This document shows, piece by piece, positions 2,845 through 10,310 of a stretch of 13,765 bases of DNA. The stretch comes from Acutalibacter sp. (GTDB lineage: Bacteria > Bacillota > Clostridia > Oscillospirales > Acutalibacteraceae). A model generated the notes under the pieces. The model ran no database searches and was not told the origin of the DNA. It worked only from the letters and a program-made list of their open reading frames with translations. How positions within the stretch are numbered: position 1 is the first letter of the stretch; each line of letters begins with the position of its first letter. The stretch is taken from NCBI GenBank assembly GCA_022801475.1, contig JAAWSH010000015.1:1-13765 (forward strand), read 5' to 3'. Position numbers and translations under genes: made by a program.

Positions 2845-5079
2845 ATGGCTGAAAAAGAGAAACGCGCTGCTGCTTACCAGGTATACAAAAATCCAGACGG
2901 ACCGGACATTGGTACCGCTGGAGCCAATGTTTTAGAGGTGGACGGGCTCTATTTTAAAGATTTAGCCCGCACTGGCTGCCTGCTACCCTATGAGGATTGG
3001 CGGCTGCCCGCTGAAGAGCGCGCCCGGGACCTGGCCGCGCGCATGAGCGTGGAAGAGATCGCCGGGTTAATGCTCTACTCGCCTCACCAGATGGTGCCGT
3101 GCCCCGCCCAGGGGCCCTTCCCCGGCACCTACGGCGGCAAGACCCTGGATGAGAGCGGAGCCGAACACTGGGCCCTGACGGATCAGCAAAAAACTTTTTT
3201 GGAGAAAGATCACGTGCGCCACGTGCTGGCTATGGCCTTGGAAAATGCCCGGGTGGCTGCCAACTGGAGTAATGGCCTGCAAAGTTTTGCCGAGGCCCTG
3301 CCCTGGGGCATCCCAGTGAACATATCCAGTGACCCCCGCCACGGCGCCGCCAAGGCCGGGGCGGAGTACAAAAGTGGTGCGGAGGATGTTTCTAAGTGGC
3401 CGGAAGGGCTGGGCATGGCCGCTACCTTTTCTCCCGAGACCTGCCGGGCCTTTGGAGACGCGGTCTCAAAGGAGTGCAGGGCTCTGGGCATCACCACGGC
3501 CCTGTTCCCCCAGGTAGACGTGGCTACCGAGCCCCGCTGGATGCGCCTGGAGGATACCTTTGGCGCCTGCCCAGACCTGGTGACAGACTTCGGCAGGGCC
3601 TACTGTGATAGCTTGCAGACTACCCAAGGCGCCCCTGGCGGCTGGGGTAAGGACAGCGTCTGCGCTATGGCCAAGCACTGGCCCGGCGGCGGCCCCTGCG
3701 AGGGGGGCCGGGACGCCCATTATCCCTTCGGAAAGTTCGCCGTGTACCCGGGACAGCAGTTAGACGGCCACCTAAAGCCCTTCCTGGAGGGGGTTTTTCA
3801 GTTGGACGGTCCCACGGGCAGCGCCTCGGCCATTATGCCCTACTACACGGTGAGCTGGGGGCTGGACCCTTCGGGCAGGAACGTGGGCAACTCCTACAGC
3901 CAGTACATCATCCATGACCTGCTGCGGGAAAAATACGGCTACCAGGGCATTGTCTGCACCGACTGGGGCATTACAGGCGACCCGGTGCCGGAGGTGGACT
4001 CTTTTGGCAGTCGCTGCTACGGGGTAGAGGACCTGACCGAGGGCCAGCGGCACCTGCTGGCCATAGAAAATGGGGTAGACCAGTTTGGGGGCAACTCGGC
4101 GGTAGCCCCGGTGCTGGAGGCCTACCGATTAGGCTGCCAGAAGCACGGCGAGGCCGCCATGCGTAAGCGTTTTGAAGAGTCCGCCGTGCGGCTGCTGCTA
4201 AATATCTTCCGCTGCGGCCTGTTCGAGAACCCCTACCTGGACCCCGAGGAGAGCGCCGCCACGGTGGGCCGGGAGGACTTTTGCCAGGCGGGCTTTGAGG
4301 CCCAGCTAAGGTCCCTGGTGCTGGTAAAGAACAACGGCGCGCTGCCCCAGCGGGAGCGGAAAAAGGTGTATATCCCAGACCGGCATGTGGCGGCGGGCAA
4401 GACCTTCTTCCGTACGCCCATGCCCGCTCAGACCATCCAGCCGGTGGAGCGGGCCCTGGTGGAAAAATACTACGACTGGGCCCAGACCCCGGAGGAGGCG
4501 GACTTTGCCCTGGTGTTTATGGAGAGCCCCCTCTCAGACGGCTATTCCCAGGCTGACCGGGAGGCCGGGGGAAACGGCTACCTGCCCGTTAGCCTGCAAT
4601 ACAGGCCCTACACAGCTCACGCCGCCCGGGAGGAGAGTGTGGCCGGGGGTGACTTCCGAGAGGAATTTACCAACCGCTCGTATAAGGGCAAGACCACGGT
4701 AGCCCGCAATGAGAGCGACCTGGACCTGGTGCTGGACACCAAAAAGGCCATGGGGGAGAAGCCGGTGATTGTGGTGCTGCGGATGCATAACCCCACGGTA
4801 CCCGCCGAGTTCGAGCCTTACGCGGACGGAATTCTCGTTGATTTTGGAGTGCAGGGCCAGGCGCTGTTCCAGATGATCAGCGGCGGAGCCCAGCCTAGCG
4901 GTCTGCTGCCAGTGCAGATGCCGGCCCATATGGAGACGGTAGAGCGCCACTGTGAGGACACCCCCCTGGATATGGAGCCCTACACCGACAGCCAGGGCCA
5001 CGCCTATGACTTCGGCTTTGGCATGGACTGGTCCGGACCTATTGAGGACGGACGGGCCCAGCGGTACGGAAAGAAGTAG
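2845..5079 (+). CDS. Glycoside hydrolase family 3 protein (beta-glucosidase or beta-xylosidase type)
   Basis: The product is a 744-residue enzyme expected to hydrolyse terminal beta-linked sugars with retention of configuration. The N-terminal TIM-barrel half carries the family hallmarks: EPRWMRLEDTFG around R231, KHWPGGGPCEGGRDAH with K277-H278, and the nucleophile motif GIVCTDWG with D373. The C-terminal alpha/beta domain spans about residues 430-735 and ends with YDFGFGMDW, the usual GH3 closing motif; no fibronectin-like domain follows. There is no signal peptide or membrane segment, so it should act in the cytoplasm on imported oligosaccharides. I chose ATG 2845 because AAGGAGG lies five bases upstream and the consensus promoter ends at 2811, which excludes the longer in-frame TTG start at 2737. 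No transporter or regulator gene is adjacent. The exact substrate cannot be read from the sequence. Confidence 0.92.
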   Translation: MAEKEKRAAAYQVYKNPDGPDIGTAGANVLEVDGLYFKDLARTGCLLPYEDWRLPAEERARDLAARMSVEEIAGLMLYSPHQMVPCPAQGPFPGTYGGKTLDESGAEHWALTDQQKTFLEKDHVRHVLAMALENARVAANWSNGLQSFAEALPWGIPVNISSDPRHGAAKAGAEYKSGAEDVSKWPEGLGMAATFSPETCRAFGDAVSKECRALGITTALFPQVDVATEPRWMRLEDTFGACPDLVTDFGRAYCDSLQTTQGAPGGWGKDSVCAMAKHWPGGGPCEGGRDAHYPFGKFAVYPGQQLDGHLKPFLEGVFQLDGPTGSASAIMPYYTVSWGLDPSGRNVGNSYSQYIIHDLLREKYGYQGIVCTDWGITGDPVPEVDSFGSRCYGVEDLTEGQRHLLAIENGVDQFGGNSAVAPVLEAYRLGCQKHGEAAMRKRFEESAVRLLLNIFRCGLFENPYLDPEESAATVGREDFCQAGFEAQLRSLVLVKNNGALPQRERKKVYIPDRHVAAGKTFFRTPMPAQTIQPVERALVEKYYDWAQTPEEADFALVFMESPLSDGYSQADREAGGNGYLPVSLQYRPYTAHAAREESVAGGDFREEFTNRSYKGKTTVARNESDLDLVLDTKKAMGEKPVIVVLRMHNPTVPAEFEPYADGILVDFGVQGQALFQMISGGAQPSGLLPVQMPAHMETVERHCEDTPLDMEPYTDSQGHAYDFGFGMDWSGPIEDGRAQRYGKK

Positions 5080-7816: not shown

Positions 7817-8587
7817 TTAGCCTTTGGTGGCGGCTTCTACAATGGCGGCAAAGTCTGCGGGCTTCAGGGAGGCTCCGCCGATGAGGCCGCCGTCTACGTC
7901 GGGCTGGGCCAGCAGCTCGGCGGCATTGCCGGCGTTCATGGACCCACCGTACTGAATGGTGATGCCGTCCCCAGCGACGGGGCTGTACAGCTCCTTAATG
8001 GTCTGGCGGATCAGGGCGCAGACCTCGTTGGCCTGGGCGGCGGTAGCGGTCTTGCCGGTGCCGATAGCCCATACGGGCTCGTAGGCGATGATAATGCGCT
8101 TCAGCTCTTCCTCACTGACCCCGCCCAGGGCAATCTTGGTCTGTAGGGCGCACAGCTCGCTGGTGATGCCCTGCTCCCGCTGCTCCAGGGTTTCGCCCAC
8201 GCAGAGGATCACGGTGAGGCCCGCGTCCAAAGCGGCACGCACCCGGTCGTGTACGGTGACGTCGGTCTCACCAAAGTACTGGCGGCGCTCACTGTGGCCG
8301 ATGATGACGATTTTTACGCCCATAGAGGCCAGCATCTCAGCGGAGATCTCTCCAGTGAACGCCCCGCTCTTGGCCCAGTGGCAGTTCTCCGCGCCGATCT
8401 GGATGTTGGTGCCCTGTGCGGCCTCCTGGGCGGCGGAAAGGTCCACAAAGGGGGTGCAGGCCACCACGTCGCAGCCAGCGTCCTTTACCAGGGGCGCGAT
8501 GGCGGCGATGAGCTCTTTGGCCTCGGCGGGGGTCTTGTTCATCTTCCAGTTGCCGGCGATAACGGCTTTGCGCAGTTGCTTGTTCAT
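7817..8587 (-). CDS. tpiA: Triose-phosphate isomerase
   Basis: This cytoplasmic glycolytic enzyme interconverts dihydroxyacetone phosphate and glyceraldehyde 3-phosphate. Its 256 residues form a complete TIM barrel of normal length. Active-site motifs are present: AGNWKMN with N13 and K15, IIGHSERR with the electrophile H98, AYEPVWAIGTGKTA with the catalytic base E170 and the flexible loop 6, and the phosphate-binding QYGGSMN. The ATG at 8587 has GGAGG ten bases upstream. That site lies in the last codons of the 48-codon gene at 8593-8739, whose stop is five bases from this ATG, so translation of the two is probably coupled. gpmI follows after 403 bases on the same strand. Confidence 0.97.
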   Translation of the reverse strand: MNKQLRKAVIAGNWKMNKTPAEAKELIAAIAPLVKDAGCDVVACTPFVDLSAAQEAAQGTNIQIGAENCHWAKSGAFTGEISAEMLASMGVKIVIIGHSERRQYFGETDVTVHDRVRAALDAGLTVILCVGETLEQREQGITSELCALQTKIALGGVSEEELKRIIIAYEPVWAIGTGKTATAAQANEVCALIRQTIKELYSPVAGDGITIQYGGSMNAGNAAELLAQPDVDGGLIGGASLKPADFAAIVEAATKG

Positions 8588-8592
8588 GATAA

Positions 8593-8739
8593 TTATTCCT
8601 CCAAAGTATTTTGCAAATTTTTCCTAAGTCTTTCAATGAGTTTTGACTTTTTCTCCGGATCATTTTCAAGCTCGATGTCATCCAGCTCGTCAATAATCAT
8701 ACGCAAAAAAGCGCAGAATTGCTTGTCAGTCTGTCCCAT
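8593..8739 (-). CDS. 48-residue small protein of unknown function, upstream of and coupled to tpiA
   Basis: The gene starts at ATG 8739 with a strong AAGGAGG site seven bases upstream and ends at TAA 8593, five bases before the tpiA start. The product begins MGQTDKQFCAFLRMIIDELD and ends KSKLIERLRKNLQNTLEE. It is highly charged, with two likely amphipathic helices around a short acidic ENDPEKK turn, one cysteine and no membrane segment or signal peptide. I do not recognise the family. Support for it being real comes from the ribosome binding site, the tight spacing to tpiA, and a degenerate paralogue immediately upstream (8808-8951) that shares its layout and conserved residues. A binding partner or regulatory peptide role is possible but unproven. 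Confidence 0.75.
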   Translation of the reverse strand: MGQTDKQFCAFLRMIIDELDDIELENDPEKKSKLIERLRKNLQNTLEE

Positions 8740-8807
8740 AGAAAATCCTCCTTGCGGTGACCGGTTTGTGGTCTGGTATATTCGGATTCAGCCTTTCAAC
8801 TTTCATT

Positions 8808-8951
8808 TTAGTCCAGCAGGGCGGTACTCTCCAGGTCCTTGATTATTTCTTTCAGCAGCTTGTCCTTTTAGGAAGGGTCCCGTTCCACACAGATTCATTG
8901 CAGCTGGCAAATCACCAGCTGCAGGAACGCGCTAAAAGCCTTGTCTCCCAT
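8808..8951 (-). pseudogene. Degenerate paralogue of the 48-residue small protein gene
   Basis: Reading from ATG 8951 (GAAGG site seven bases upstream), the frame gives MGDKAFSAFLQLVICQLQ, then TGA, ICVERDPS, TAA, and KDKLLKEIIKDLESTALLD before a final TAA. It aligns almost end to end with the intact neighbour: DKAFSAFLQLVICQL against DKQFCAFLRMIIDEL, and ERDPS*KDKLLKEIIKDL against ENDPEKKSKLIERLRKNL. Two internal stops make a full-length product unlikely. It lies directly after the pgk terminator. I read it as an old tandem duplication or an ancestral pair in which this copy has decayed. Confidence 0.75.
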
Positions 8952-8969: not shown

Positions 8970-8996
8970 AAAAAAGGGCGGAGTCATCCCCCGCCC
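8970..8996 (-). terminator. Strong intrinsic terminator after pgk
   Basis: On the minus strand GGGCGG and CCGCCC (plus positions 8991-8996 and 8976-8981) form a GC-only 6-bp stem with a nine-base loop, followed by six T (8970-8975). It begins 15 bases after the pgk stop and precedes the broken small gene, so it should limit read-through into tpiA. Confidence 0.88.
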
Positions 8997-9011
8997 TCCC
9001 GCATAGCAAAA

Positions 9012-10310
9012 TTATTTCTCGTTCAGGCAGGCAATACCAGGCAGCTCCAGGCCCTCCAGGAATTCCAGGGAGGCGCCGCCGCCGGTGGAGATGTGGGTCA
9101 TCTTGTCCGCAAAGCCCAGCTTCTCTACCGCCGCCGCGCTGTCGCCGCCGCCGATGATGGAGATGGCGCCGCTCTCGGCCACAGCGGAGGCTACGCCAAT
9201 GGTGCCCTTTGCGAAGTTGTCCCACTCGGAGACGCCCATGGGGCCGTTCCACACCACGGTGGCCGCGCCCTTAATGGCCTCGCTGAACAGCTCAATGGTT
9301 TTGGGGCCAATGTCCAGGCCCATCCAGCCCTCGGGAATACTGGTGGAGTCCACTACCTGGCTCTCGGTGTCGGGGTCGAACTCCTTGCCCACCTTGGTAT
9401 CCACAGGCAGCAGGAACTTCACGCCGTTCTTCTGGGCCTTCTCCAGGGTAGCCTTGGCCAGCTCCAGCTTGTCCTCTTCGCACAGCGAAGTGCCAATGCC
9501 ATAGCCCTGGGCCTTGAAGAAGGTATAGGCCATGCCGCCGCCAATGATCAGGGTGTCCACCTTGCTGATCAGGTTGTCGATTACGCCAATCTTGTCGGAG
9601 ACCTTTGCGCCGCCCAAAATGGCCACAAAAGGACGCTTGGGCTCGGTCAGGGCGCCGCCCATGACGGTGATCTCCTTCTGGATCAGGTAGCCGCACACGG
9701 CGGGCAGATAGTGGGACACGCCTTCGGTAGAAGCGTGGGCCCGGTGGGCGGTGCCAAAGGCGTCGTTTACATAAATCTCAGCCATAGAGGCCAGCTCTTT
9801 GGCAAAGGCGGGGTCGTTCTTGGTCTCTTCAGCATGGAAGCGGATGTTCTCAATAATCATCACGTCGCCGTCCTTCAGAGCGGCGGCTTTGGCTTTGGCA
9901 TCGGGACCGATCACGTCCTTGGCCATAGCCACGTCTTTGCCCAAAAGCTTACCCAGCTCGGCGGCCACAGGGGCTAGGGAGAATTTGGTTACGTCGCCCT
10001 TAGCGGCCTCCAGGGCCTTAGCGGTGGCCTCGGCCTGCTCGGCCTGGGGCATAGCGTCAATCTTTTTCTTCTCCTTCTTGTCCAGCTTAACGGTATCGTT
10101 AAAAATATTGTGGGGACGGCCCATGTGAGAGCAGAGAATCACCTTGGCGCCGTGATCAGAAAGGTACTTTACAGTGGGCAGCGCGCCTACAATGCGCTTG
10201 GTGTCAGTGATTGCGCCGTCCTTCATAGGGACGTTAAAGTCGCAGCGGACCAGAACCCGCTTGCCGGCTACGTCAATGTCCTCAACGGTCTTTTTGTTCA
10301 AATAGTTCAT
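9012..10310 (-). CDS. pgk: Phosphoglycerate kinase with an internal insertion
   Basis: This cytoplasmic glycolytic enzyme makes ATP while converting 1,3-bisphosphoglycerate to 3-phosphoglycerate. Motifs seen in order are [10 protein letters not shown] (19-28), CSHMGRP (60-66), FSLAPVA (110-116), [62 protein letters not shown] and [13 protein letters not shown], ending [13 protein letters not shown]. The length of 432 exceeds the usual ~395. The excess is a lysine- and alanine-rich stretch of about 35 residues (roughly 69-107, nucleotides 9990-10106) between HMGRP and FSLAPVA, where most homologues have a few residues. The ATG at 10310 has AAGGAG nine bases upstream, and a good sigma-A promoter lies at 10371-10399. 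No gap gene is adjacent. Confidence 0.97.

Follow-up and report, generated by a model that had tools for sequence, protein, structure and literature searches.

Between the glycolytic genes pgk and tpiA of an Acutalibacter species lie two small genes, one intact and one decayed, which raises the question of what such genes are doing inside a glycolytic block and whether they have anything to do with tpiA. The arrangement was examined in the window, which is the whole 13,765-nucleotide stretch of DNA analysed here, and its features are collected in Table 1; the flanking open reading frames (ORFs) are taken to be tpiA and pgk from their sequences. The first-pass annotation of this DNA had described a 48-codon gene with a strong ribosome-binding site that ends five bases before tpiA, and the sequence bears this out. 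Five bases separate the stop codon of the intact gene (hereinafter designated copy 2) from the tpiA ATG at position 8587, and the Shine-Dalgarno site AAGGAGGA, reading from 8753 to 8746, is spaced 6 bases from the copy 2 ATG. The final codons of copy 2 are Leu-Glu-Glu-stop and contain GGAGGA (8602-8597), likely the tpiA ribosome-binding site, in agreement with the same annotation.

Table 1 Features of the pgk-tpiA region in the window.
Feature	Position	Strand	Basis
tpiA	7817..8587	minus	ORF; name presumed from sequence
GGAGGA within final codons of copy 2, likely tpiA Shine-Dalgarno site	8597..8602	minus	Sequence and distribution
Copy 2, intact small gene, 48 codons	8593..8739	minus	ORF, homologues, dN/dS, predicted helical hairpin
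Shine-Dalgarno site AAGGAGGA of copy 2	8746..8753	minus	Read from sequence
Copy 1, decayed relative, 47 codons plus stop, in-frame TGA and TAA	8808..8951	minus	Sequence comparison
Terminator-like hairpin and T run, directly 3′ of pgk	8972..9000	minus	Fold z-score -3.4
pgk	9012..10310	minus	ORF; name presumed from sequence

A hairpin 3′ of pgk is seen, as judged by eye, in most gaps of the genus; the one in the window is absent from the list of terminators returned by a pattern scan. A regular-expression test of four pgk-tpiA family copies found no promoter-like site upstream of them (0/4), and a looser promoter scan of this strand gave two 9-of-12 matches, one ahead of copy 2, the other within copy 2 and ahead of tpiA. 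An Rfam search of the window gave 0 matches.

Copy 2 is a real gene of a selected small-protein family that is uncurated and unnamed, as judged from its homologues, purifying selection and a conserved start codon and ribosome-binding site. Relatives of its protein are encoded at 17 GTDB loci, 14 of them exactly 48 amino acids long, and 457 of 736 candidate proteins are relatives at E ≤ 0.01 by a profile built from 22 members. Among the matches listed (120 of the 457 relatives), the majority are 48 amino acids long and the readable names are 'hypothetical protein'. M1 and F8 are invariant in a 90-sequence family alignment, and G2, T4, D5, K6, Q7, F11, R13, L42, Q43, L46, E47 and D48 are conserved in at least 90% of sequences. 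The family N-terminus reads MG(Q/M)TDxQFxxFLR and the C-terminus DLQxTLED; the N-terminus distinguishes two types, MGMTD and MGQTD, and the window protein is of the MGQTD type. Four close family pairs show nonsynonymous/synonymous differences of 3/10, 3/15, 0/7 and 1/4, giving dN/dS values of 0.06, 0.03, 0 and 0.06, synonymous sites being saturated in more distant pairs; the earlier proposal that the protein had been under selection is well supported by these values and by the homologues. The distribution of the family is patchy, with members in 8/148, 11/296 and 10/394 genomes of three samples that overlap and differ in queries and thresholds.

AlphaFold2 predicts that the copy 2 protein, modelled as a monomer, forms a helical hairpin of two helices (residues 2-24 and 28-47; mean pLDDT 88, pTM 0.56), a fold that by itself is little informative. 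Small helical hairpins commonly work by binding, and the protein may act by binding another protein or itself. The first-pass annotation could put no name to the family, and no convincing Pfam, NCBIfam, PHROGs or PADLOC model was found for it here. The window protein matched 0 families in Pfam, NCBIfam or PHROGs, and 22 family members gave only scattered, unconvincing matches in these collections (best E 0.0066, 0.0064 and 0.002). When 90 members were searched against PADLOC, the window protein was unmatched and the other matches were scattered and weak (best E 0.0005); an anti-phage defence protein was rejected on this basis. Neither P0001 and L067 in annotated phage records nor the L005 and L067 members in annotated plasmid records found a match. 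Full-text searches of the literature with the motifs MGMTDKQF and MGQTDKQF yielded no paper, and the excerpts available of the literature on small ORFs at pgk-tpiA or on phage small-protein cassettes with ribbon-helix-helix partners contain nothing on the family. The analysis defines an uncurated small-protein family, resembling the GMSC-type catalogue families outlined in the excerpted text of PMC11364881 in being a conserved small protein without domain annotation; according to that text, a CDD domain is assigned to only 6.1% of the small-protein families in the catalogue. It differs from them in that its context, its decay history and its link to the translation signal of tpiA are worked out here.

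The decayed gene directly upstream (hereinafter designated copy 1) is a relative of copy 2. In its own genome (1.78 Mb, 64% complete), the copy 2 protein matches copy 1 at E 2.4e-6 as the sole other match at E ≤ 10, so the likeness exceeds chance. The paralogue described in the first-pass annotation does carry two in-frame stops, TGA and TAA, but is 47 codons long and not 48. Likewise, a tandem pair with one intact and one decayed member is present, but a recent tandem duplication is unsupported: the copies share 44% identity over 41 amino acids and fall in separate groups of the family tree (48 columns, weakly resolved), so they are either old paralogues or separate arrivals. The nearest kin of copy 1 is an intact 47-amino-acid copy in another species, G020. 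Separate arrivals are also consistent with the synonymous divergence, which is greater in the copies than in their flanks (copy 2 between G000 and G011, pS 0.76 versus flank dS 0.73; copy 1 between G000 and G020, dS 1.11 versus 0.50). In the phage contig L061 (5001-5313), a tandem family pair has an upstream copy without an ATG and an apparently intact downstream copy, parallel to the arrangement in the window.

Comparison with the sister species G005 bears on the order of decay. The first stop of copy 1 is common to both species, so copy 1 was probably dead before they split. On the sequence evidence, copy 2 is kept in the window species while its G005 counterpart has decayed, with the start codon lost and a frameshift running into a stop. 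The two versions differ by 8 nonsynonymous changes, against a flank identity of 94%; 7 of the 8 can be polarised through G011 or family frequencies, each of them to the G005 side (binomial p 0.006). A 33-amino-acid remnant of the G005 type (P0005) is known in the protein database from 12 contigs, so an assembly error is unlikely.

Across the genus, tpiA is present in 26 of 29 genomes and pgk in 27, and pgk lies directly upstream of tpiA in 25; the G014 contig ends too early. Family copies occupy 4 of these 25 gaps and are absent from the other 21. Besides the window, the occupied gaps are those of G005, with both copies decayed, G011, with an intact gene of the copy 2 type, and G020, with an intact gene of the copy 1 type that stops short of tpiA. 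The shortest gap of the genus measures 67 bases, and some gaps contain other sequence. That of G002 (L086) holds an unrelated 57-amino-acid ORF, to which the cassette ORF of the viral contig L193 is 60% identical over 42 amino acids and which is also related to an ORF of L133 that lies close to a family member. Because the L193 ORF resembles the G002 ORF, the pgk-tpiA gap appears to have held two kinds of phage-borne small gene. A repeat-like insert, AAAAGTTTCGTCCACCTTTTCAAAGGTGGCAGGG, is found in the gaps of the related G022, G010, G017 and G018 (L077, L081, L083 and L085).

The earlier suggestion that the place of the gene inside a glycolytic block links its protein to TpiA or glycolysis fails on this distribution: the copies fill 4 of 25 gaps, both are decayed in G005, and elsewhere the family has unrelated or phage neighbours. 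A partner role specific to TpiA or glycolysis was rejected, other loci of the family lying behind unrelated genes. The homologue search proposed at the outset did return homologues with dN/dS below 1, but their position beside tpiA is not conserved.

Among the 17 GTDB loci, two (L001 and L002) lie in the pgk-tpiA gap and apparently belong to the same genomes as G011 and G005. The others follow topA (L003, L005 and L006) or pnp (L007), or lie behind metG with a transposase fragment in between (L004), gene names being assigned by eye; L008 is beside a baseplate gene, and the remainder are in other gaps or at contig ends. A scan of IMG/VR, in which every confirmed match came through the pattern MG[QM]TDxQF, placed the family in 33 contig loci, 25 of them distinct. 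Ten neighbours from L043, L061, L055, L065 and L008 were compared with PHROGs, and nine of them match virion, lysis or packaging families, namely tape-measure (a second-best match, the best being of unknown function), endolysin, tail, terminase, neck, major head, portal, major tail and baseplate; the tenth, at the MGMTD-type locus L065, matches a phage repressor family. The phage context of the other viral loci was judged by eye only. A promoter-like consensus site is found at 19 of the 25 distinct viral loci (shuffles, mean 0.8, maximum 3) and at 7 of the 15 distinct chromosomal loci L003-L017 (shuffles, mean 0.3, maximum 4). In phage contigs, the family appears to behave as an accessory, moron-type gene, situated among structural genes and often with a promoter of its own. 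The likeness to phage morons, as these are characterised in the excerpted text of PMC7067206, lies in being an extra gene among structural genes, with its own promoter and a patchy occurrence across phages. The family departs from them in that its copies also stand alone behind housekeeping genes, in its very small and nearly fixed length and in having no known phenotype.

The connection to tpiA is found in the end of the gene. At unrelated loci too, the C-terminal codons of the family are a Leu codon, GAG/GAA, GAY and a stop, and this ending, Leu-Glu-Asp/Glu-stop, carries the GGAGG that in the window is the likely tpiA Shine-Dalgarno site. TGGAGG occurs within the last 26 bases before tpiA in 11 of the 14 members of one clade (support 100/99) and in 0 of 11 genomes outside it. 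Four of the 11 carry family copies (the window, G005, G011 and G020), and seven carry neither copy; of the remaining clade members, G022 has CGGAGG, and G027 and G002 have another site without the tail. The complete tail, TTTGGAGGACTGA, precedes tpiA in G024, G010 and G017, which do not have the gene, and in G011 as the end of its gene. It is matched at 11/13 letters in G018, 10/13 in G022, 9/13 in G026, G020 and G006 and within 8-9/13 in G001; the best of the 11 genomes outside the clade reaches 9/13. With the window, G005 and G011 left out, tail matches differ between the clade and the outside (Mann-Whitney p 0.003, 11 versus 11), the genomes compared being related and the row counts not independent. 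The pattern TGGAGGAYTGAN{3,7}ATG occurs at 21 places (22 rows) in 15 of the 29 whole genomes; tpiA accounts for five of them, including the G011 gene, and a reversed control pattern gives 1 match. The tail before tpiA in species without the gene would most simply be a fossil of a lost family gene, and tpiA ribosomes may use it as their binding site. The kinship of the genomes compared, the exceptions G027 and G002, and the synonymous divergence of the copies in excess of their flanks count against this reading. A link to the translation control of tpiA, also suggested at the outset, holds to the extent that the tail contains the likely Shine-Dalgarno site, and no further. The locus offers a testable case of the stop-codon end of an accessory gene serving as a lasting Shine-Dalgarno site of a core glycolytic gene.

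We consider it probable that a moron-type gene of the family settled at pgk-tpiA, that its tail became the tpiA ribosome-binding site and that the gene was then lost in most species. The starting point would be a phage-borne unit, a self-contained gene with its own promoter among structural genes, copies of which would have lodged behind housekeeping genes. One such copy may have arrived at pgk-tpiA in or near the ancestor of the 14-species clade. Copy 2 of the window, which is without a clear promoter of its own, is probably transcribed by read-through past the pgk hairpin. The last codons with their GGAGG would have taken on the role of the tpiA ribosome-binding site, and the genes would have decayed or vanished in most species, the tail staying behind; the window species would be one that still has an intact copy 2. 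The protein is most likely an accessory helical-hairpin binder carried by phages, and here carried along with tpiA. This account draws on what can be observed directly, that is, the family, its constraint, its contexts, the pattern of decay and the distribution of the tail sequence, and from it we infer the direction in which the family gene moved.

Four other readings were weighed against this history. One concerns the tail: TGGAGGAYTGA before tpiA in gene-less species could be an ordinary Shine-Dalgarno site, arisen by chance or predating the gene, with its likeness to the tail coincidental. GGAGG is common in strong Shine-Dalgarno sites, another site precedes tpiA in the clade members G027 and G002, and in some members the match to the tail does not exceed that of the best outgroup. 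The longer pattern, however, is rare (21 places in 29 genomes) and is the normal ending of the family at unrelated loci, and we regard coincidence as unlikely. It is considerably less likely that the gene belongs to a two-gene operon of toxin-antitoxin-like or phage regulatory kind and is repressed by a ribbon-helix-helix-like partner, the window copy being an orphan. A gene of the TK(S/A)HQ(K/E)WVA...RVVMNLNHNTD type was recognised by eye downstream in seven loci (L004, L012, L015, L041, L049, L055 and L132), in four of which (L004, L012, L049 and L055) the palindrome GGATGTACATCC covers the small-gene promoter and looks self-regulatory, and the repressor-like neighbour in L065 would be a partner on the MGMTD side. 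Yet the partner is absent at most loci, including those at pgk-tpiA, so that the constant two-gene operon of type II toxin-antitoxin systems is not seen; the TKSHQKW type has no Pfam match and only a PHROG of unknown function, no toxin-like feature was seen, and the PADLOC matches are scattered and weak.

A further reading makes the ORF a cis-acting leader, the translation of which opens or couples that of tpiA, the peptide being incidental. In its favour, the ORF stops 5 bases ahead of tpiA and encloses the likely Shine-Dalgarno site of that gene. Against it, the protein sequence is conserved in family members at unrelated loci, the family is present in only 4 of the 25 gaps of the genus, and the G020 copy falls short of tpiA. 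Nor is an RNA structure that would hide the tpiA start supported, a fold at least as good being obtained in 123 of 200 shuffled sequences (z 0.31). A leader peptide or cis attenuator of tpiA would keep its position before that gene, whereas the family elsewhere has other neighbours, and we judge this reading improbable to about the same degree as the operon. The ORF might be taken for a functionless open frame arisen by chance, given its shortness and the decay of both copies in G005; this is contradicted by the homologues, the purifying selection and the conserved start and ribosome-binding site, and the probability of such a frame is negligible. The settled and then mostly lost moron-type gene is the reading we retain.

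Some of the viral family loci have a further feature. Two hairpins with complementary loops, GGCAAG in the 5′ one and CTTGCC in the 3′ one, occur together in 10 of the 25 distinct viral loci, distributed as 10/15 of the MGMTD type and 0/10 of the MGQTD type, with 0/17 among the GTDB loci. The 5′ stems vary (ccag/ctgg, tccg/cgga and gttaag/cttaac), some with 3 pairs only, and the loop is constant. The 3′ hairpin was scanned for twice, giving 63 sites, of which 60 have 260 bases or more of upstream sequence. In 38 of these 60, GGCAAG occurs at an upstream distance of 180-255 bases, compared with a median of 1 over 60 orderings of the same letters, the runner-up ordering (22 sites) being GGGCAA, which overlaps GGCAAG; the hairpin patterns were derived from family loci and favour the family, and the other 22 of the 60 sites are without the arrangement. 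A small ORF of about 43-65 amino acids is present in 34 of the 38 sites; 29 of these are distinct and fall into at least five sequence groups, including the family of the window protein. In 17 loci searched against Rfam, no model matched the cassette RNA elements at gathering scores, and full-text literature searches found no paper pairing GGCAAG with CUUGCC. These results point to a small-ORF cassette of phage contigs that is bounded by RNA hairpins.

Rop/Rom of ColE1 plasmids is an RNA-binding helical hairpin that binds RNA kissing loops. The predicted monomer of the present family resembles it in being a two-helix hairpin of similar length, and the transcripts of some phage members contain complementary loops. 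Against this likeness, no PDB sequence match was better than E 0.042 and Rop is not among the matches listed, a Foldseek search of the predicted hairpin against the PDB and BFVD returned nothing at E ≤ 0.001, and the same RNA loops flank unrelated ORFs too.

A broader picture, which we put forward with some doubt, is that gut Firmicutes prophages hold a pool of exchangeable cassettes, each with a promoter, a 5′ GGCAAG hairpin, an ORF of about 43-65 amino acids from one of several unrelated families and a 3′ CTTGCC hairpin. Members of these protein families without RNA flanks might seed the gaps behind housekeeping genes, the pgk-tpiA gap might have received at least two kinds, and the last codons of a lost gene might persist as the ribosome-binding site of a core gene. 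The contigs carrying cassettes are L044, L046, L048, L058, L063, L066, L067, L068, L070, L071, L125, L129 and L142-L199. In L044, a viral contig with a family gene, a type II hammerhead ribozyme and five tRNAs are encoded at 4098-4166 and 9042-9928, and these are the only Rfam matches in the 17 loci.
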